NCBI GenBank assembly: GCA_024275095.1
Contig: JAJRZV010000087.1
Location: 1 to 14,986 of the forward strand
Reading direction: 5' to 3'
Length of the DNA stretch: 14,986 nucleotides
DNA from: a bacterium
GTDB taxonomy: Bacteria; JAJRZV01
The notes beneath the pieces are model-generated. The model did no database searches, was not told the DNA's origin, and saw only the letters and a list, made by a program, of their open reading frames with translations. Below, in pieces: positions 3 through 10,393 of this stretch (position 1 is its first letter; every line of letters starts with the position of its first letter). Both the position numbers and the translations under genes were made by a program.

Positions 3-1820
3 TCGGGACAGGGGGACCTGCGGGGGTGCGTGTGGCGGTCCCTCGACCTTACGGGCTGGGTGAGATTCGATTCTCCCTCGAGTGATTGTGATATTCCTCC
101 CGGCGGTGCAGGCACCTTCAGTGTTGTGTTCAGTACCGTGCCCACAGTGAGTGCTGACACTGTGTATACCTTTACAGGTGACCCGCGCGATGCGGTAACG
201 CTTGACCTTGCAGTACTCAAGGATAATGTAATCGTTACGCCATATGCACTGACACTTACCCGTTCACCAGCCGGTCCTCTTCCCGCTGACGGCACTTCTT
301 ACTATGTGCTCACTGCGACCCTTACGAACAATTCGTACCCTGTAACGGGAGTAATAATTGATTTTAACTCCACCGCAGGAACGTTAAGCGCTTCCACCGG
401 ACGAACAGATGCGAACGGACAGGCAGTGGTTTACCTTTACGCTCCTGCATCGAGTGTGGATGTTTCAGGTGTGGCCACAGCATCGTATCTTAACGCAGAA
501 GCGTCAACCCCTGTGTCATTTACAGGGGTCACAGGACCCAACCTTCAGTATGTTGGTGGCACGCTTGAGCCCCAGGTTGCAGAAAAAGGCTTTCCCGTGT
601 CTTTTTCACTTCAGGTGTATAACGTGGGCACAACGTATATGTCCCTGCTTACAACTTCGTATTTGCTGATTTCTGATGGCGTTACTGATTACATTGCTTA
701 TCTTGCAGAACCCGTTACTGTGCCTGTTGGAACATATACAACCCTCTGGTTCGGTCCTGAAGTGATGCCTTCGGGTATTTCTGCTGGAACCTATTACCCG
801 GATTTGTACTTCACCGACGGCGTGACGTTTCAGTGGCGAGACGTAAGCGATGATGTGCTCGTGTTTTTGAGACCCAGCGTGGTTAATGTGGGTCGCGAGT
901 TCGGTTCGGGCAACGTGTGGATTGAGATAAGCAGTGAGGTGGGTCAGTCAGTGGAGGTGGTATACAAAGACGCTTTTGAAGGAGGAGTGTGGACACCTGC
1001 GGCCACGTTTACCATGTCAACAACCAGGGTAATATGGACGGATGACGGCACGCAGACCGTGACAGCTCCCACCTATGTGAAGGAGCGCTATTATCGCGTG
1101 CGTGTGGAAGGTACGGATGCACTCAGTTACGAGATGCCGGGTGTGTACCGAATTGATGTGGTGGGTGGCTACACGCTCGTTTCGTTTCCGCTGGAGCTCA
1201 CCGTGAATACACCCTACGAGATTTTCCAGGAGCAGCTTGTGGGTGATATTTCCGAAATCGCAGCGGACAGGATTCTCTACTGGGATGTCGCCCAGCAATC
1301 TTATCGCTACGCCTGGAAATTCGATTCCGACGGAGCCTACCCCGACCTGGATAACAAGTGGATAGAGACGGATCTCGGGGGTGAAACCACCATCACACTT
1401 GATCCTGATGAGGGGTTTTTTGTACAGAGCCGGCATGGTAACCAGAGCTTTCAGGTTGTGGGGTTTGTTTCGCAGACCGATCGTCAGAGGAGCATTGTTT
1501 ACAGGTTACAGATTTTCGGCACCACTTACCCTGTAGAGGTCACCCTCGGTGCCTCAGGTTTCTGGGAAAGCGGGGCTAACGGCGATATCTCTGAAATTGA
1601 CGCCGACAGGGTGCTTTACTGGGACCCTGCCGCTCAGTCGTTTCGATACGCGTGGTTGTTTGACTCAGATGGAGCGTATCCTGACTGGGATGGGAAATGG
1701 ATAGAAACGGACCTTGGAGGTGAAACCACCATTACGCTGATGCCGGGTGTGGGTTACTTTTACCAGGACAGGCTTAATGATTTTATCTGGGTTTATCCCA
1801 AACCCTATAGTGAACCGTGA
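3..1820 (+). CDS. Large secreted Ig-like (Big_1/CARDB) protein, 5' partial
   Basis: The reading frame is open to the left edge with no stop before the first GTG at 30, so the true start is probably outside the window. Numbering from that GTG, residues about 72-166 look like a bacterial Ig-like Big_1 (invasin-type) domain: alternating beta strands, the motif TDANGQA and a closing VSFTG. Residues about 170-282 resemble a CARDB-type adhesion module, and residues 1-60 look like the end of a similar domain. The C-terminal third holds two copies of a 62-residue unit (about 405-466 and 518-579). There is no membrane anchor or sorting tail; the protein ends in YPKPYSEP. The role is probably extracellular or surface-associated (adhesin or scaffold). 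Substrate and partner are unknown. The protease gene follows after 9 nt, suggesting co-expression. Confidence 0.8.
   Translation, partial: SGQGDLRGCVWRSLDLTGWVRFDSPSSDCDIPPGGAGTFSVVFSTVPTVSADTVYTFTGDPRDAVTLDLAVLKDNVIVTPYALTLTRSPAGPLPADGTSYYVLTATLTNNSYPVTGVIIDFNSTAGTLSASTGRTDANGQAVVYLYAPASSVDVSGVATASYLNAEASTPVSFTGVTGPNLQYVGGTLEPQVAEKGFPVSFSLQVYNVGTTYMSLLTTSYLLISDGVTDYIAYLAEPVTVPVGTYTTLWFGPEVMPSGISAGTYYPDLYFTDGVTFQWRDVSDDVLVFLRPSVVNVGREFGSGNVWIEISSEVGQSVEVVYKDAFEGGVWTPAATFTMSTTRVIWTDDGTQTVTAPTYVKERYYRVRVEGTDALSYEMPGVYRIDVVGGYTLVSFPLELTVNTPYEIFQEQLVGDISEIAADRILYWDVAQQSYRYAWKFDSDGAYPDLDNKWIETDLGGETTITLDPDEGFFVQSRHGNQSFQVVGFVSQTDRQRSIVYRLQIFGTTYPVEVTLGASGFWESGANGDISEIDADRVLYWDPAAQSFRYAWLFDSDGAYPDWDGKWIETDLGGETTITLMPGVGYFYQDRLNDFIWVYPKPYSEP
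1242..1427 (+). repeat. C-terminal protein repeat, unit 1
   Basis: This in-frame 186-bp unit encodes 62 residues beginning GDISEI and containing FDSDGAYPD and KWIETDLGGETTITL. It matches unit 2 (1581-1766) at 49 of 62 residues in my ungapped hand alignment. The offset between units is 339 nt (113 codons). Divergence at the DNA level suggests an old, selected duplication rather than a recent slip. Confidence 0.85.
1581..1766 (+). repeat. C-terminal protein repeat, unit 2
   Basis: This is the second copy of the 62-residue unit, with the same length and no gaps relative to unit 1. The differences are concentrated in the last 15 residues and at a few hydrophobic positions (A/D, V/P, K/L, L/W). 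The unit lies near the end of the protein, a position often taken by surface-binding or sorting modules. I do not recognise the fold by name. Confidence 0.85.
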
Positions 1821-1829
1821 GAGGGATTG

Positions 1830-4800
1830 ATGAAGAAAAGATTTATCCTTGGATTGGGAATAATTCTGTTGGGTACGGCAGGTGCCTCTTTTCGCGCTGC
1901 CGCGCAGGCACCCTTGTTTAACTGGGGTGAATCGGGATGTGAAATTCAGGATGAGTACGGGAATCCCCTCACCAACCAGCTGATACTTCTCATCGGCGTG
2001 GGAGCTAACGGAGTTATTGACCCGCCGGATGCCGACGGGGTCGGTGGAGACGACGTGTTGCTCGCAGTTGTTTCCGGGGATGCAAACCCCAACTACATTA
2101 ATCCATTGGAAGTTGTACCCGGTGTGTGCAGCCAGCAGTTTTCGTACGATTCGGAGTTTTCCAATCTCGCCAACGGTGATGTTATATACCTGCGCGCTTA
2201 TAACGGTACCACCATCGCCAATTCCACCTATTACGGCAATTCCCCTACAGACGTGGTGGACCTTTCCATCGGATTTGATGCGACGCCCGATGGACCCTGG
2301 CAGACAAATATTATCAATCCTTATTACACTTCCGTGGTCCTCGCGTATTTTAAAGCCCGGCCTGCCGCCGGTGGCGTGCTTCTCAAATGGGCTACCGGCA
2401 GCGAAACAGCCAACATCGGCTTCCAGATTTATCGTTCACGCTCCGCGGATGGACCCTATGAGGAACTGGCCAATGGATTTGTTCCTTCCCAGGCAATTGA
2501 ACCTGCGGGAGCATTTTACACCTTCTTTGACTGGACGGCAGAGCCTGGAGTCACCTACTACTACGTGCTTCAGGATGTACCCGCTGAAGGTATGCCCGTG
2601 GAGTATGGACCGGTTTCGGCACAGGCGCTCCTTTCTGCAGAACCCCGCGTTCTCGAATGGGAAGAGGACGAATCTATTTTTGTGGAAGTTGAACTTCAGG
2701 GCTTTAACGTAGGGTATTCTCCCCAGGGTCACGTGATAGAAATTCCAACTTTTTCGCCGGCGGAAATACCAGGCCAGTATCTTCTCCCCATCCGGCAGTT
2801 CGACTACGGTGTTCCTCCTCAGGGAAATATAAGAGTCGAGCTCGTGGATGCCGACACAGTAGATGTCTACGGCGTATACATGGAACCTTACTACCCCTTG
2901 CAGCTGACTGATCCCACATTGGGCTCGTATCCAATCCCGGTTTCAGAACCACCTGCTACTCCTGTAAGCCTCTCTTCCGTCGATTTTCTGCGAGACCAGC
3001 GGATCGCTCACGTGCTCGTGTACCCTGTGAGATACATTCCGGAAGAGAACAGGGCGGTCGTTTACTTGCGCGTCCGCTTTCGCATTACGTGGTCCGGAAC
3101 AGGGAAGGAAAATCTCGACAAAGGGTACGAGTGGGTTCTCAGAGGACTGGATAATTATCTGGAGTCACGCAGACTCAGGGTTGCGAGACGAACGAGCGCG
3201 GTTGTGAGTCTTCCGGAGGCTCTGCGCGTTCGCACTGATGAACGCACACTTTATCGTATCCCGGAGGCCGTTCTTGCGGATACATTCTCTTCCAGTGCGA
3301 GCAGTTTCGTGTTGAAAGGGTTAAGCGGTGAAAAAGCGCACATTAATTCGGGAGGATATCTGGTTTTCCTGGGTGGAGCCGGTGATGGATTCTACACGCC
3401 TGTTTCCGCCTTTCTCATCTATCCCGGAACCTCCACTCGCACGGCAGGTGCATTTGATGCAGCTCCCTCAGGTGCTTCGGTTTCCAGTGAGGTGGAGTGC
3501 GAGAGGGAACAGGGAGAGCCGTTAAGGTATATCGCCAGCATGTCTCACCATCCACCTGAAGAGAAGTGGATATGGAAGCGCGCTTTCGGAGGTGGAAGTG
3601 TTGACCTCCCCTTTGCACTCGGTGGTTATACCAGCGGTGACGTGTCGTTCCATATTCACCTGATCAACTCTACAGATGTCGATGCGTCTGTGGAGTTTGT
3701 ATATAACGGGAGTGTGCTGGCAGGGAGTTATACAGACATTTCGCCTCATTCCGACCTGATGTTCACAGTAACAATACCACAGGCACTTCTTGTGGGTACT
3801 GAAGGCTCTCTGACCATGAATGTTCTGTCAGGAACCCAGGTGCTTGTAAAAGGTATGAGAGCCGTGTATTCGTGTTCCACCACTTTTTACACTCCCTTTC
3901 CTTTCAGAGTGACTTCAGAAGGCGATTATTCTTTCAGCACCACGGGTGAGGGTCCCTATCTCATTTTCAAACTCAGCAATAACGATATAAACGAAGTGGC
4001 CTACAACGTGGAGGTTACAGGAACGTACACGCTGACCGCACACCTTTTACCCGGCGATTATATCGTGGCCGGTGTACCGAACATTCCCGATGTTCTCGAA
4101 ATCAAACCTGCCTCCTACATTTCCGATCCCGCAGGTACTGTGGATTATCTCATAATTACCCCACAGAGGTTTGCTTCCGCCCTTAATCCTCTTATACAGT
4201 TGCGCACCAATGAAGGCATGAACGTTCGGGTGTTCTCTGCCCAGCAGATATACGATACGTTTGCTGCCGGTAATACCACGCCCGCAGCGATCAAAGAGTT
4301 CCTCGCGTACGCTTACAACAACTGGGGACAGCCATCGTTTGTGCTGTTCGTGGGAGATACTTCTTACGATTGTCTGGGAGTATATGCACGCACCTGGGGT
4401 GATACGGGGGAGGACCGTTGTGTACTTCCTTCTCTATTTGTGAACACGAACTACTATAACCTTTCCGTACCTTCCGATAATGCTCTTGTAAGCATTGCGG
4501 GAAACGACTCCGTTCCCGATATTGCATTCGGGAGATTGCCTGTGAAGGACGTTTCAGAGCTGAGAGATATGGTTCAGCGGATCGTGGATTATGAAAACGA
4601 TACGGCGGATGAGTCCTATTACCGCCTCCTGTTTTTTGCAGACAAAAGCGGAGATTTTCTCGAGACGGCGAAGGCAATGATTGATTCTGTTCCTGAGGGG
4701 TATCCCCACGTGTTGAGCTGGGAAGGGGAACTTTCCAGTGACCAGATGCGAGCGGGCATTGTTTCGCAATGGCAGAAGGGCGGACTCTTTGTGCATTACA

Positions 4801-5429
4801 TTGGCCATGGTTCTACGCTCTTCTGGGGAGCGGACATGTTCTTTTCAACCGATGATCTTTTCACCTTCAACACAACGCGTCCTGTGGTGTTCGCTCCTCT
4901 TACGTGCCTGAATGCGTTTTATACAGACCCCGTAAATGTGGTCATTGCCGAAGGGGCATTGCTGTCGGGTAATGCTGTGGCCGCCTGGGCTTCCACAGGG
5001 TCGACCACTTTACCCACGCAGAGGAAACTGTTTGAGGTCTTTTACGATGCTGTTTTCAGAAAAGGGATTTACCGGATAGGACAGGCGGCTGTGTATGCAA
5101 AAACGTTCATGGAAAGAACAGGAGATTGGAAGGACGTGATTGTCACCTGGACACTTCTTGGAGACCCGGCACTCAAGGTGAAGGTTCGCGCAGTGGAGGT
5201 GCTGGAAGGAAATGTCAAATCCTGGCCTCCACCGATCGAATTTCCAGAAGACACGGCCGGGAAAGAATACGAGCCTGGAGGCGGGATACATATACCCGTT
5301 ATAGATAAGGCAAAAGGCAGCTCGTGTAATTACAGCGGGACATCAGGAGGACCTTGCTGGCTTCTGATGCTCTTTTTTGCGTGTTACCTCATGTTTCGTG
5401 TTCTCACAAGAAGATGGACAATGCGATGA
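1830..5429 (+). CDS. Gingipain-type (peptidase C25) cysteine protease, secreted
   Basis: This is a 1199-residue secreted protease. ATG 1830 is preferred over the in-frame TTG at 1827 because it begins MKKRF, and a purine-rich GAGAGGGA (1819-1826) lies just upstream. A signal peptide probably ends at AQA|P, residue 27. Residues about 169-275 form an fn3-like module (LLKWATGSE, GFQIYRS). Residues about 340-435 resemble the propeptide region of C25 proteases. The C25 domain spans about 773-1118. It has the catalytic His in HYIGHGS (H993, compare GHGS in gingipains), the nucleophile in LTCLN (C1026) and the closing LLGDPALKV. The last 37 residues are Cys/Gly/Ser-rich, then hydrophobic, then basic, resembling a CTERM sorting or anchoring signal rather than a type IX C-terminal domain. 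The stop overlaps the next small gene (ATGA). Cleavage specificity cannot be read from the sequence. Confidence 0.88.
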   Translation: MKKRFILGLGIILLGTAGASFRAAAQAPLFNWGESGCEIQDEYGNPLTNQLILLIGVGANGVIDPPDADGVGGDDVLLAVVSGDANPNYINPLEVVPGVCSQQFSYDSEFSNLANGDVIYLRAYNGTTIANSTYYGNSPTDVVDLSIGFDATPDGPWQTNIINPYYTSVVLAYFKARPAAGGVLLKWATGSETANIGFQIYRSRSADGPYEELANGFVPSQAIEPAGAFYTFFDWTAEPGVTYYYVLQDVPAEGMPVEYGPVSAQALLSAEPRVLEWEEDESIFVEVELQGFNVGYSPQGHVIEIPTFSPAEIPGQYLLPIRQFDYGVPPQGNIRVELVDADTVDVYGVYMEPYYPLQLTDPTLGSYPIPVSEPPATPVSLSSVDFLRDQRIAHVLVYPVRYIPEENRAVVYLRVRFRITWSGTGKENLDKGYEWVLRGLDNYLESRRLRVARRTSAVVSLPEALRVRTDERTLYRIPEAVLADTFSSSASSFVLKGLSGEKAHINSGGYLVFLGGAGDGFYTPVSAFLIYPGTSTRTAGAFDAAPSGASVSSEVECEREQGEPLRYIASMSHHPPEEKWIWKRAFGGGSVDLPFALGGYTSGDVSFHIHLINSTDVDASVEFVYNGSVLAGSYTDISPHSDLMFTVTIPQALLVGTEGSLTMNVLSGTQVLVKGMRAVYSCSTTFYTPFPFRVTSEGDYSFSTTGEGPYLIFKLSNNDINEVAYNVEVTGTYTLTAHLLPGDYIVAGVPNIPDVLEIKPASYISDPAGTVDYLIITPQRFASALNPLIQLRTNEGMNVRVFSAQQIYDTFAAGNTTPAAIKEFLAYAYNNWGQPSFVLFVGDTSYDCLGVYARTWGDTGEDRCVLPSLFVNTNYYNLSVPSDNALVSIAGNDSVPDIAFGRLPVKDVSELRDMVQRIVDYENDTADESYYRLLFFADKSGDFLETAKAMIDSVPEGYPHVLSWEGELSSDQMRAGIVSQWQKGGLFVHYIGHGSTLFWGADMFFSTDDLFTFNTTRPVVFAPLTCLNAFYTDPVNVVIAEGALLSGNAVAAWASTGSTTLPTQRKLFEVFYDAVFRKGIYRIGQAAVYAKTFMERTGDWKDVIVTWTLLGDPALKVKVRAVEVLEGNVKSWPPPIEFPEDTAGKEYEPGGGIHIPVIDKAKGSSCNYSGTSGGPCWLLMLFFACYLMFRVLTRRWTMR

Positions 5430-5608
5430 TGAAGGAGCGGAAGAAGAGGGGAAAAAAGAATAGCGGGGGGAGGGTTAAGCGGTCGAAAAGGAGAAAGTTT
5501 TCTCCGCCCCGAATTCTCGAAGAAATGGTGATAGAGGCACGAGCTGGAGTGTGCAACTCTCCGCCCACTTTCGGCAAGGACGCAACCTGCGATAACCTTT
5601 TCAGTTGA
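5426..5608 (+). CDS. Small peptide, candidate RiPP precursor
   Basis: This 60-residue ORF shares ATGA with the protease stop and its TGA lies inside the TTGA where the radical SAM gene starts. Such double coupling supports a real gene, although no strong ribosome binding site is visible. ATGs at 5414 and 5429 are alternative starts. The N-terminal 24 residues are extremely Lys/Arg-rich. Next comes KFSPPRILEE, which resembles the K-[W/F]-x-x-P-x-I-x-E element I recall from PqqA-like and GeoRSP-type leaders. The final 20 or so residues, from ARAGVC to TCDNLFS, hold two Cys plus Ser, Thr, Pro, Gly and Asp. There is no hydrophobic segment. I infer a substrate of the adjacent maturase, with the core near the C terminus. 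Alternatives are a small basic nucleic-acid-binding protein or a non-functional overlap ORF. Confidence 0.55.
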   Translation: MMKERKKRGKKNSGGRVKRSKRRKFSPPRILEEMVIEARAGVCNSPPTFGKDATCDNLFS

Positions 5609-6600
5609 GTTCAGAATATTCACACAGTGATGTGTTTAAAGGTATTACGAACGTCCTGGTGGAAGTCACAGAGAACTGTCCTCTTGACTGTCGCCATTGC
5701 TACCTGAAAGCCCGCAGGCGCAGGAAACACCATCTTCCGGTGAAGACATTCGCATCTTTTATTCAGATACTCCGCGACCACGGCGGCCTGTTTTTGACGC
5801 TGACAGGCGGAGAGCCTCTTCTGCATCCTCACGTGGATGACTTGCTGAAAATAGCCGCAGATGAGGGGTATGTGATAAGAATTTATTCCAGCCTTCAGAA
5901 TGTGTCGGAATCTCTTTTTGAACTGATTTCCGCCTTTCCTGTCATGGAAATAGAGACAAGTCTTTGCGGAGCCTCTGATGATGAACATGACAGCGTTACC
6001 GGCGTGAAAGGGAGCTTCTACCGTACCGTTGAGGCCATAAAGCGTTTGCGGAAAGAGGGTGTGAAAGTAAACATTAAGATGATAATTACGCGGGAGAATT
6101 TTTCTCAAATCGCTTTGGTAAAACGCCTGGCCCGGGAACTGGATGTGAATTTTTTTGCGAGCCCTGTCATTCTTCCGTGTGGTGGAGATTTCCGAATCCC
6201 CGAAAAGTTCCTTACAAAGAGGCAGTTGAAAGAACTCTTCGAAACTCACGCAGATGTCGCTGGTGGTGTTTCACCCCGTCGCGTTGTTTTCCCTTTGTGT
6301 AATATCGAAAAAGGAATATTCCTGTCTTCCCGCGGAGAAGTACGCCGGTGCATGGAACATCCGGAAATCCTTGGGCATCTTCCAGAAGATGATTTAAAAG
6401 CAGTTCTTGAGAGCTCACGTTTTCGTGAAGCAGCGAATATCGCCCGGGAGCCCCCGATAGCAGAGTGTAAAGAATGCGCCTTTATTCAGTGGTGCAGGCC
6501 CTGCCCGGCCCTTTTGAAAAATGATACTGTCAAGAAGTTGATGATAGAGCAATTCTGCCGCATAGCACACGTGAGATATGATATAACATCCAGAACCTGA
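5605..6600 (+). CDS. Radical SAM/SPASM peptide maturase
   Basis: This 331-residue protein begins with a radical SAM domain. CPLDCRHC (C25, C29, C32) is the CX3CX2C ligand set for the SAM-binding [4Fe-4S] cluster, and TGGEP (67-71) is the SAM-contact motif. The C-terminal SPASM domain has a full seven-Cys set: C232-X11-G-X4-C249, then C288-X2-C291-X5-C297-X2-C300, then C318. This predicts two auxiliary [4Fe-4S] clusters as in PqqE and RiPP thioether or C-C crosslinking enzymes. No RRE/PqqD-like domain is fused: only 24 residues precede the first Cys. An in-frame stop at 5593-5595 leaves TTG 5605 as the furthest possible start; GTG 5632 is the alternative. Neither has a Shine-Dalgarno, so coupling from the small peptide gene is likely. 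The exact reaction cannot be assigned; heme-related or other SPASM roles remain possible. Confidence 0.88.
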   Translation: MSSEYSHSDVFKGITNVLVEVTENCPLDCRHCYLKARRRRKHHLPVKTFASFIQILRDHGGLFLTLTGGEPLLHPHVDDLLKIAADEGYVIRIYSSLQNVSESLFELISAFPVMEIETSLCGASDDEHDSVTGVKGSFYRTVEAIKRLRKEGVKVNIKMIITRENFSQIALVKRLARELDVNFFASPVILPCGGDFRIPEKFLTKRQLKELFETHADVAGGVSPRRVVFPLCNIEKGIFLSSRGEVRRCMEHPEILGHLPEDDLKAVLESSRFREAANIAREPPIAECKECAFIQWCRPCPALLKNDTVKKLMIEQFCRIAHVRYDITSRT

Positions 6601-6615: not shown

Positions 6616-7365
6616 GTGTATCGTTTCTTTCTTCTCGTATCTGATTATATTCGCCTGGCCGCTTTAAGCTTTCGGTATGCTTTCAGAAGACCCTGGTACG
6701 GCTCAGAAATTATCAAGGAAATGGATAAGATGGGCACTTATTCATTACCCATCGCAGCCATTACAGGCTTTTTCACGGGGCTCGTGCTTGCACTTCAAAC
6801 AGCCAGGAGTCTGGAAGCGTTTGGTATCAAAACGTACATCGGTCAGGTTCTGGCAATTACGGTGGTCAGGGAATTGGGACCGGTGATTGGTTCTTTGATG
6901 ATTGCCGGCAGGGTGGCATCGGGCATCGCTGCGGAAGTGGGAGCGATGGTTGTTGGTGAACAGATTGATGCGTTGAGGGTGATGGGTGTCAACATTATTA
7001 AAAGGGTTGTCATTCCCAGGGTGGTGGCCGGTGTGGTGATGCTGCCTGTGCTGATCGTTCTTGTAGATGTAACGGCCCTTATGGGCGGTGCTGTCGTTTC
7101 TACGTTCGTTTTGCGATTTCCTTCGTCTTTTTACTGGTCGTCAGTTTTGCAGATACTCACTTATCACGACCTTATTATGGGATTTACCAAACCTGTTGTA
7201 TTTGGATATATCATCGCATCCTATTCCACGTTTGCTGGTTTGAGGTCCTCAGGGGGGACGGAAGGAGTGGGGAGAGCCACAACCTCTGCGGTGGTTACAT
7301 CTTCAATACTTATCATTCTCGCTGATTTTATTCTTACCAAAATTTACTTTCTCGTGCTGTGGTGA
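6616..7365 (+). CDS. mlaE: MlaE-family lipid ABC transporter permease
   Basis: This 249-residue integral membrane protein is of usual length for MlaE/YrbE (DUF140) permeases. The family's hallmark cytoplasmic stretch is present: RELGPV at 85-90, then AGR (97-99), AAEVGAM (105-111) and VGEQIDAL (113-120). Hydrophobic segments lie around 45-62, 125-150, 190-205 and 225-247. It should form the inner-membrane channel of an MCE lipid transporter, moving phospholipid between inner membrane and periplasm with the MlaF ATPase and MlaD ring encoded next. The start is GTG with a good ribosome binding site. The next gene begins 10 nt after its stop. Direction of transport in this organism is not known; E. 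coli Mla is generally described as retrograde. Confidence 0.93.
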   Translation: MYRFFLLVSDYIRLAALSFRYAFRRPWYGSEIIKEMDKMGTYSLPIAAITGFFTGLVLALQTARSLEAFGIKTYIGQVLAITVVRELGPVIGSLMIAGRVASGIAAEVGAMVVGEQIDALRVMGVNIIKRVVIPRVVAGVVMLPVLIVLVDVTALMGGAVVSTFVLRFPSSFYWSSVLQILTYHDLIMGFTKPVVFGYIIASYSTFAGLRSSGGTEGVGRATTSAVVTSSILIILADFILTKIYFLVLW

Positions 7366-7375
7366 GGGTTGTAGA

Positions 7376-8134
7376 GTGGCGGATGAACTGATCAGATTTC
7401 AGAGTGTTTCGAAATACTACGATGATATTCCTGTGTTGAGGCATGTCTCCTTTAACCTTAAAAAGGGGGAACAACTTGCTATCATAGGAGGTAGTGGTAG
7501 CGGGAAGACCACGATCTTAAAAATTATACTGGGATTAATTGTCCCTGAAGAAGGGGAGGTCTTTCTGTACGGAAAGCCTGTTCGAGCATTGAGAGAGGAT
7601 GAACTCAATCGTCTCAGGAGCCGAATGGGCATGGTGTTTCAATCAGGAGCGCTCTTTGATTCTCTCACGGTGTGGGATAACGTTGCCATGCCGCTTCTGG
7701 AGGAGATAGAGAGGGTGCGCAAGATTACGGAAGAAGATATAGAGGAAATTGATGCGAGAGTGAGAGAAATGCTGGGCCTTCTTGACCTCAAGGGTGTAGA
7801 GCAAATGTTGCCTTCGGAACTGAGCGGAGGCATGATGCGCCGGGTTGCAGTCGCCAGAGCTCTGATTAAACAGCCAGAGCTCATTCTTTATGATGAGCCG
7901 ACCGTGGGACTGGACCCTATCACCGCTGATAGAGTTACACGCTACATTGAGAGCCTTCAACAGCGACTTCATGTATCCTCTATCGTGGTCACTCATGATC
8001 TCCGTTTCGCAATGCGCGTGACCAGCCGTATAATTATGCTGGTGAAAGGTCGAGTCGTGTTTGATGGTTCGAAGGAGGAGTTCCTCAAAAGCACGCAGGA
8101 TCATGTCGTGCTTTTCAGGGAGGCGGGATTGTGA
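7376..8134 (+). CDS. mlaF: MlaF-family ABC transporter ATP-binding protein
   Basis: This 252-residue ABC ATPase has every expected motif: Walker A GGSGSGKTT (38-46), Q-loop Gln89 in MGMVFQ, signature LSGGM (149-153), Walker B LILYDEP (169-175, catalytic Glu174), D-loop GLDP and switch His207 in VVTHD. The phrase FQSGALFDSLTVWDNVA after the Q-loop and the MMRRVAVARAL helix are typical of the MlaF/Ttg2A subfamily. It powers the transporter with the flanking MlaE and MlaD. The GTG start has a modest GAGGG at 7364-7368 upstream. Its TGA overlaps the GTG of mlaD (GTGA), indicating translational coupling and balanced subunit synthesis. Confidence 0.95.
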   Translation: MADELIRFQSVSKYYDDIPVLRHVSFNLKKGEQLAIIGGSGSGKTTILKIILGLIVPEEGEVFLYGKPVRALREDELNRLRSRMGMVFQSGALFDSLTVWDNVAMPLLEEIERVRKITEEDIEEIDARVREMLGLLDLKGVEQMLPSELSGGMMRRVAVARALIKQPELILYDEPTVGLDPITADRVTRYIESLQQRLHVSSIVVTHDLRFAMRVTSRIIMLVKGRVVFDGSKEEFLKSTQDHVVLFREAGL

Positions 8135-9012
8135 AGGTGAGCAGATGGAAAAAGATCCGCGTGGGAGTGCTTGTAACCCTGGCTTCGATAATTGTTCTGG
8201 TATTTATCATGTTGATAGACGAGAGAGGGGGGATTTTTGCATCCTACAGCCGGGTGAAGGCTTATTTTAAAACGGTTTCCGGGTTGCGTGTGGGAGCCAT
8301 CGTGTACCTTCTGGGTGTGGACGTGGGCGAGGTCAACCGTATCTTTTATGAAGGTGAAGGCGTTGTGGTGGAAATGGACATTTTATCGAAGGTGCTTGAC
8401 AGGATTCCTTCCGACTCAGTGGCACTTATAAAAACGCAGGGCCTTCTCGGCGATAAAATGATTGAGATTCGACCAGGCACCTCTTCCACTCCGATACAGG
8501 AAGGGGGGGTGCTGCGGGGTGAGTCAGAGGGAGAGATATACGAAAACGTCGCCCGGGCAGGTGTGGTGGTCCGCAAAGCGGCACGGATTGTTGAGGAACT
8601 GGAAGAAATTCTTAGAGAGATAAGGTTGGGCAAGGGCTCTATCGGGAAATTCTTCAAGGATGATACGCTTTACGAAAACGTGAATAAAACAGCCTCCAAT
8701 CTCAACATGCTTGTTGTGCATCTTTCCAAAACCAGTGAGCGCCTTCAGGAATTTATAGACTCGGTTAACGAACAACTGGTGCAAAAGGGCACGTTTAAAA
8801 AACTTTCTGATACTGCAGCGCAGTTGAATCTTGCCGTTTCGGATTTGAGGTCCATCATTCTTTCGTTGAAGGAAGGGAGGGGTACGGCGGGAAAAGTGAT
8901 CAAAGATGAAGAGTTTTACAATTCTCTTACGTCGGTGGTGAAGGAACTGAAAATTCTCATTAACGACATTAAGGAAAATCCTTCTCGATACATGAGCATA
9001 AAGATCTTTTGA
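8131..9012 (+). CDS. mlaD: MlaD-family MCE substrate-binding protein
   Basis: This 293-residue membrane-anchored MCE protein has one N-terminal transmembrane helix (about 10-29) and an MCE domain (about 38-117) with the hallmark GLLGDKMIEI (104-113). It is longer than the roughly 180-residue E. coli MlaD. The extra C-terminal region is a largely helical periplasmic tail with two matching motifs, KGSIGKFFKDDTLYENV (168-184) and RGTAGKVIKDEEFYNSL (250-266), and a shorter related KGTFKKLSDTA between them. MCE proteins assemble into hexameric rings that hold lipid over the MlaE permease. The GTG start overlaps the mlaF stop and is preceded by GGGAGGCGGGA. mlaB, mlaC and mlaA homologues are not in the window. 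Confidence 0.93.
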   Translation: MKVSRWKKIRVGVLVTLASIIVLVFIMLIDERGGIFASYSRVKAYFKTVSGLRVGAIVYLLGVDVGEVNRIFYEGEGVVVEMDILSKVLDRIPSDSVALIKTQGLLGDKMIEIRPGTSSTPIQEGGVLRGESEGEIYENVARAGVVVRKAARIVEELEEILREIRLGKGSIGKFFKDDTLYENVNKTASNLNMLVVHLSKTSERLQEFIDSVNEQLVQKGTFKKLSDTAAQLNLAVSDLRSIILSLKEGRGTAGKVIKDEEFYNSLTSVVKELKILINDIKENPSRYMSIKIF

Positions 9013-9022
9013 GATGGTTGAT

Positions 9023-10393
9023 ATGAAGCGTGCATTGTTGAGTGTGACCTGGATTGTTCTGGTTGTATTTGCTACAGGATGCTCTCGAAAGGTGAAAATT
9101 GTGGAATTCGTTGATTATCAATGCCCCTCGTGCAAGAGAGCGGCTGTTCACATTAAAAAATTAAAAAAAGAGTTTGGCAGAAAACTTGTCGTTGAGGTTA
9201 AAAATTTACCGGTTAAACATTTGCATCCCTACGCTGTCATCGCGGCGAAAGCTGCTGAGTGTGCACGCAAACAGCACAAGTTCTGGCCCATGTATTTCAA
9301 GCTGTTTGAAAAGTCCCCTGTTCTTTCCAGAGAGGACATTCTCAGTTATGCGGTGGAGCTGGACCTGAATATAGATAGGTTTATTCCATGTCTTGACAGC
9401 AGAGAAACAAGCAGGATTGTTCAGGAGCACCTTACAGAGGCAAGAAAGCTCAAGCTCACGGGAACACCCTCTTTTGTCATAGAGGGAGAGGTGCTTACAG
9501 GAGTGCCTTCATATGAGACGTTAAGGACGATTGTGAAAAGACTTATCAGTGGCCACCGCTTTAAGCATTCAACCGTAAAAATCACGGTGGTTAACGATGA
9601 AAAATGCCCTACCTGCGGAACAACCCGATATGTTGCGGAGCTGAAAAAGATTTTCTTTAACAATGAAGTAAGAACGCTGAGCGTATACTCCCCGGAGGGG
9701 AAAAAATTAAAGAAGGACTACGGCATTCAATGGCTTCCGGGAATAGTCATTACCGGAGAGCCGGAAGAATATGCAAACTTCTATGTGATGTATCCACTGC
9801 GTCTTGTGAAGGTTAAGGGAGCATATGTGGTAAACCCTGCTTTTTATCAAATTGGCTATTCAGACGAAATACCGTCTCAGGATCCGTTGATGACGTATGG
9901 TTCACCGGGGAAGGCGCTTGTCAGGATGGTTCCCTATACATCGTTTGGACCGGGATGTAGAGGGTGTGCAGAGGCTGCCAAGTACATTCAATCCATTGTG
10001 GAGCAGTTCCAGGGCAGGGTTTCCGTAACTTATAAATTCCTCGTCATCAATAACGATGATCCTGCTTATGAGGCGGCGCTGGCAGTATTGTGTGCGGCAG
10101 AGCAGGGGGGCATGGCAAGAATGATGAAAATAATTTACACACGCGGGTTTACACGTGATTACAGGGCCTTTGCTCAGGCCGCCGGAGTTAAAAACCTCAG
10201 AAAGTTTACAGAATGTATTTCCGAGCGTCGTTATAAGAACAAAATTGCAGAAGCTGTGCGTGAAGCGGTAAGACTGTGGGTGCCGTTTGCCCCCTATACC
10301 TTCATAGATCACTACCGCTTCCCGGATATACCTAATCCCAAATGGTTGAAAGGTCTTCTGTCAGACCTGGTCGCTCTGGCTGCGCGGCGCTGA
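9023..10393 (+). CDS. Triple-thioredoxin-fold lipoprotein (DsbA-like N-terminal domain)
   Basis: From ATG 9023 (preferred over ATG 9014, because it opens directly with MKRALL) the protein is 456 residues. Its signal peptide ends in FATGC, giving probable lipidated Cys20, although Ala at -3 is not the best lipobox residue. Module 1 (about 22-175) is DsbA-like: FVDYQCPSC (C34-C37) and cis-Pro149 in GTPSF. Module 2 (about 188-275) carries CPTC (195-198) and a WLPGIVI segment that could hold a cis-Pro. Module 3 (about 300-450) carries CRGC (312-315) and APYTFID near the end. I infer a periplasmic thiol:disulfide protein or multi-module redox relay. It lies 10 nt after mlaD and overlaps the following transporter gene. 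The oxidising or reducing partner (DsbB/VKOR or DsbD type) is not visible here. Confidence 0.8.
   Translation: MKRALLSVTWIVLVVFATGCSRKVKIVEFVDYQCPSCKRAAVHIKKLKKEFGRKLVVEVKNLPVKHLHPYAVIAAKAAECARKQHKFWPMYFKLFEKSPVLSREDILSYAVELDLNIDRFIPCLDSRETSRIVQEHLTEARKLKLTGTPSFVIEGEVLTGVPSYETLRTIVKRLISGHRFKHSTVKITVVNDEKCPTCGTTRYVAELKKIFFNNEVRTLSVYSPEGKKLKKDYGIQWLPGIVITGEPEEYANFYVMYPLRLVKVKGAYVVNPAFYQIGYSDEIPSQDPLMTYGSPGKALVRMVPYTSFGPGCRGCAEAAKYIQSIVEQFQGRVSVTYKFLVINNDDPAYEAALAVLCAAEQGGMARMMKIIYTRGFTRDYRAFAQAAGVKNLRKFTECISERRYKNKIAEAVREAVRLWVPFAPYTFIDHYRFPDIPNPKWLKGLLSDLVALAARR

Follow-up and report, generated by a model that had tools for sequence, protein, structure and literature searches.

The YxxP element is a known recognition motif of lasso RREs (PMC12710340), and discrete lasso-like RREs have already been noticed beside radical SAM enzymes (PMC7470986). 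Here, we analyzed a 14,986-nucleotide stretch of bacterial DNA (the window), in which a gene of 60 codons overlaps the gene of a radical SAM/SPASM enzyme. With YxxP lasso-type precursors served by a discrete PqqD-like RRE, this locus shares an aromatic-x-x-P-x-[ILV] leader, and its relatives have PqqD and HprK-like genes. It differs from them in its radical SAM/SPASM maturase, in the Cys of its core and in the lack of any PqqD found in the window genome; neither a lasso cyclase nor a B2 peptidase was seen among the window ORFs examined. Sactipeptide and ranthipeptide maturases of the SkfB, AlbA and PapB type likewise combine a SPASM radical SAM enzyme with a Cys-bearing core, but the window enzyme has no fused RRE and stays under the NCBIfam cut-offs, and its cross-link is only a predicted one. 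The HprK, PqqD and radical SAM proteins of the relatives give sub-cutoff matches to the SynChlorMet system of NCBIfam (ScmC, HprK-like; ScmD, PqqD-like; ScmE/ScmF, radical SAM), whereas their scores far under the cut-offs, the C25 peptidase partner and the failure to find ScmC- or ScmD-like genes in the window genome set the two apart. As in PqqA/PqqE and MftA/MftC, a small peptide adjoins a SPASM enzyme; in contrast to these, no PqqD or MftB partner was found, the leader motif is another one and the scores are sub-cutoff. SCIFF ranthipeptides, with six Cys in forty-five residues, are unlike the window peptide, which has two in 60.

We consider it probable (about 0.82) that the 60-residue gene encodes a RiPP precursor and that the overlapping enzyme is its maturase, the modification itself being a predicted step. 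The initial annotation had proposed such a locus, and we support this reading because profiles of the family score the peptide, because its aromatic-to-Cys spacing is the 18 residues seen in relatives, and because the nearest relative of the enzyme, in genome G043, comes with the most similar peptide; the association with C25 peptidases adds to this. Against it stand a low codon score, a long enzyme branch with AU results that also allow a non-peptide placement, a VLxGCK-seeded profile that misses the peptide, the failure to find PqqD and a variable second Cys. The features of the locus are listed in the table.

Table. Features of the candidate RiPP locus in window coordinates.
Feature	Position	Strand	Basis or remark
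Surface protein, Ig-like Big_1 similarity	30..1820	+	6 bp upstream of C25 gene
C25 (gingipain/PorU-type) peptidase, 1200 aa, probably secreted	1827..5429	+	Pfam Peptidase_C25 3.5e-63
Cys/Gly-hydrophobic-Arg C-terminal tail of C25 protein	5319..5426	+	Sequence; similar tail in G043
Precursor peptide gene	5426..5608	+	60 aa, ATG ATG start; scored by profiles of other precursors built without the window
Leader motif F-S-P-P-R-I (residues 25-30), YxxPx[ILV] element	5498..5515	+	Common to relatives' peptides
Predicted core AGVCNSPPTFGKDATCDNLFS (residues 40-60)	5543..5605	+	Aromatic-to-Cys spacing 18; cleavage point inferred
Cys43	5552-5554	+	In predicted core of precursor
Cys55	5588-5590	+	In predicted core of precursor
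Radical SAM/SPASM maturase, 331 aa, without RRE domain	5605..6600	+	Pfam, Cys motifs, predicted structure

The layout of the small gene is as initially described: it begins in an ATGA that also contains the TGA stop of the C25 peptidase gene, and its own TGA stop lies in a TTGA whose TTG starts the radical SAM gene. The translation is MMKERKKRGKKNSGGRVKRSKRRKFSPPRILEEMVIEARAGVCNSPPTFGKDATCDNLFS. Its two Cys lie 12 positions apart and not 15, as had been stated. Codon usage is intermediate: the in-frame log-odds is 2.0, where real genes have a median of 15.6 and out-of-frame sequence gives -31. The gene is present as a single copy in its genome, where nothing else reaches a significant precursor-like score. 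The surface protein gene at the start of the window is a probable operon neighbor, its tie to the peptide system being conjectural. Lipid transport genes of the MlaE, ABC ATPase and MlaD types begin on the same strand 16 bp past the radical SAM gene (6616-9012). The product encoded at 9014-10393 has several thioredoxin-like domains and is related to Rcas_1661 (seleno)lipoproteins.

The enzyme carries both the CX3CX2C motif (C25, C29 and C32) and the full set of seven SPASM Cys (232, 249, 288, 291, 297, 300 and 318) that had been noted for it, and it matches Pfam Radical_SAM (3.4e-19) and SPASM (3.3e-5). Its predicted structure (pLDDT 87) shows a radical SAM and a SPASM fold, which leave no space for an RRE. 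The closest PDB structures are the peptide-modifying SPASM enzymes SuiB, SkfB and anSME, of which SkfB is also the best PDB sequence match (about 23% identity in the structural alignment). None of the NCBIfam equivalog cut-offs was reached; the best model, TIGR04053, gave 89 bits where 395 are required, and the models for PqqE, MftC, GeoRSP, ScmE/ScmF, SkfB and AlbA scored far under theirs.

The window genome alone represents its phylum in the searched genome set. The enzymes of the relatives are about 20-34% identical to that of the window. A single-sequence search with the window enzyme found G043 (33%), G059 (30%), G149 (34%) and others at E values of 1e-43 to 1e-25, and 80 more loci emerged when 84,980 genomes were scanned with alignment A1; the best of these usually have a PqqD-like gene upstream and often an HprK-like gene as well. 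No relative was found in a search of viral contigs. Among relatives the prevailing cluster order is [C25 peptidase]-PqqD-rSAM-peptide-HprK-like. Enzymes of peptide-type loci score a median of 95 bits against the window enzyme, and the others 60. In all best trees the window enzyme falls, on a long branch, on the peptide-type side, with SH-aLRT support of 97 (126 rows), 99 (69 rows) and 99/99 (47 rows), and in the careful tree the G043 enzyme is its sister (94/91). Grouping with non-peptide SPASM families, which had been named as an outcome that would refute the proposal, is thus absent from the best trees, although AU tests are compatible with such a placement (p 0.88 in a poorly searched tree, p 0.42 in the careful one).

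A motif search of small ORFs beside the relatives' enzymes ([KR]..[WFY]xxPx[ILVMF]..[LIVMF]) exposed Cys peptides adjoining many of them; a positional ORF listing brought in L142 and L144 as well as L051, a PqqD-precursor fusion, and a spacing regex added L045, L120, L122 and L139. In total, 37 loci have a Cys peptide whose leader is of the lasso type (YxxPx[ILV]). Counted from the aromatic residue, the first Cys comes 18 residues later in 13 of the 37, as in the window, and 20 later in 12. Family alignments show an invariant leader P, a nearly invariant Y (F in the window) and an invariant first Cys; the P-x-I element and the first Cys are kept beside homologous enzyme genes with a variable N terminus, which the initial annotation had named as support, whereas the second Cys, for which it had named the same, varies in position. 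The leader had been likened to that of PqqA; its motif is instead of the lasso YxxP type. Likewise, the basic N terminus (K or R at 14 of the first 24 residues) had been thought unusual, but a basic run ahead of YxxP is common in the family and that of the window is just longer. The peptide lies immediately upstream of its enzyme in the window, as stated, while this arrangement is not that of the family, in which the precursor gene is downstream of the radical SAM gene in 35 of the 37 loci. The C-terminal CDNLFS of the window peptide resembles CTNLYS in L122.

Against a profile of the other precursors, the window peptide scored 25 bits (E 1.1e-5), a value that is partly circular because the spacing regex was modeled on the window. 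A cleaner test used a profile that was seeded with only the three position-found peptides, iterated with the window left out, and run on a set of about 15,000 ORFs and shuffles. Over successive rounds, the window peptide obtained E values of 2.6e-3, 3.3e-4, 4e-5, 4.2e-6, 1.5e-4 and 2e-4. Since the best of 5,000 composition-matched shuffles reached only E 0.69 or worse, the window precursor is more than a chance match. A profile seeded with VLxGCK-type precursors alone did not find it, and only profiles of the AG[IV]C subtype do, which places it in an AG[IV]C-like subtype. A tblastn search of the peptide against the relatives' loci returned noise only. No model for the window peptide exists in NCBIfam, Pfam or PHROGs, and the relatives' precursors that were tried had no match in NCBIfam or Pfam; a Pfam Rrp14 match to the window peptide (0.42) was set aside as an artefact of basic composition.

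With profile A6, built with the window peptide among its rows, the G043 peptide KKRYIKPKIISREKIEARANVCPSTSGGKSSGSTPPCSVLTS came up on a different contig from the radical SAM gene of that genome. By eye it is the nearest to the window peptide (IEARANVC versus IEARAGVC). On its 3' side are a Lamin-Tail surface protein and then a truncated C25-like gene that matches the N-terminal part of the C25 profile (E 7.6e-10 and 2.6e-9). The Lamin-Tail protein (L195 3100-3211) and the window C25 protein both end in a Cys/Gly-hydrophobic-Arg tail that, as far as its sequence goes, resembles a sorting signal.

C25 is the family of the gingipains and of the type IX sortase PorU. The window protein carries the His-Gly (HYIGHG) and Cys (LTCLN) motifs, and its gene stands for a recurrent partnership left out of the initial annotation: C25 genes occur at 11 of 51 peptide-type loci and at none of 74 other radical SAM loci (Fisher 2.6e-5, to be taken as indicative because the loci are of unequal length and some are not independent of others). 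Ten of these loci (L043, L048, L051, L069, L070, L072, L073, L074, L142 and L144) have the C25 gene co-directional and ahead of the cluster; in L052 it is on the opposite strand. We found no description of C25, PqqD, HprK and SPASM together in a literature of which many subscription papers lay outside our reach, and C25 and gingipains go unmentioned in a review on proteases of RiPP leaders. We also weighed a gingipain-like cut after Arg39 but rejected it, as an Arg at this position is not conserved in the family.

The window departs from its relatives in the carrier and the kinase. The assembly is 97.02% complete in 136 contigs, the window contig being 15 kb. A PF05402 search of this genome gave nothing above cut-off, and a tailored PqqD profile that matched 8 of 8 control relatives had no match in it at E 1. 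An HprK profile found only the housekeeping HprK (adjoining RapZ) and PEP carboxykinase there, and no RiPP-type HprK-like kinase. The precursor gene occupies the slot that PqqD takes in L043, L048, L069, L070, L072 and L073, and in L051 (4483-4923) the same slot between the C25 and radical SAM genes holds a PqqD-precursor fusion of 146 residues. PqqD is either lost or in the unassembled 3%. In the latter case the precursor would be genuine and the pathway of the ordinary RRE-dependent type, a variant differing only in its carrier, with PqqD and the HprK-like kinase among the missing sequence. That the contig begins just upstream and that in relatives the cluster can be spread over more than one contig speak for this explanation, but the sensitive profiles recovered only housekeeping proteins and the precursor itself fills the PqqD slot; we regard it as possible, though doubtful. 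An alternative, put forward tentatively and to be thought unlikely, is a YxxP RiPP pathway that works without PqqD or any RRE, in which the precursor would sit in the slot of a lost PqqD, possibly having arisen from a PqqD-precursor fusion, the basic N terminus would take over enzyme binding, and the product would work with the secreted gingipain-type C25 protein.

Two further explanations deny the small gene its role. It may be the decayed, nonfunctional remnant of a fusion such as that in L051, with the enzyme acting on another substrate; the shared slot, the low codon score, the very basic N terminus and the absence of PqqD would all suit a remnant. However, the leader motif, the spacing of 18, the Cys and the C-terminal hexapeptide shared in part with L122 are retained, the frame is open with tight overlaps on both sides, and this is the sole significant precursor-like gene in the genome, which makes decay very unlikely. 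A chance ORF between two genes, beside a SPASM protein that acts on something other than a peptide, would fit the long branch, both AU results and the lack of any NCBIfam equivalog, yet it is at odds with profile scores far above those of shuffles, the exact spacing, the matching peptide in the genome of the sister enzyme and the C25 context, and we hold it to be highly improbable.

Returning to the precursor and maturase reading, we infer that the enzyme would bind the leader without a PqqD carrier and form one or two radical cross-links at Cys43 and/or Cys55. Thioethers, each with a loss of 2 Da, are the most likely product, because, of all core features, the Cys placed at a constant distance from the leader is conserved best; epimerization or C-C/C-O links may occur instead. 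The core of about 21 residues would then be freed from the leader and exported, and it may act with the C25 peptidase, which is probably secreted and membrane-anchored, or be processed by it. The window system offers a natural test of an RRE-free reading of the YxxP leader.

The wider peptide family of these radical SAM enzymes is widespread and spans little-known phyla, including Elusimicrobiota, Kiritimatiellota, Planctomycetota, Omnitrophota, Desulfobacterales and others, has no precursor model in the libraries searched, and is statistically tied to C25 peptidases. Genome G104 (L203, L204, L206 and L207) has about ten dispersed precursors, among them a tandem triplet at L203 127-682 and a pair at L206 7182-7627; as most lack a nearby radical SAM gene, one maturase may serve many peptides. 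Genomes G149 and G287 contain several precursors with long Gly/Ser/His-rich cores (L197 7447-8910, L201 7130-8568, L198, L199 and L200), some of which adjoin a second SPASM enzyme. In L131 (5629-5871), the precursor gene is antisense to its radical SAM gene and overlaps the end of the latter by a few bases.
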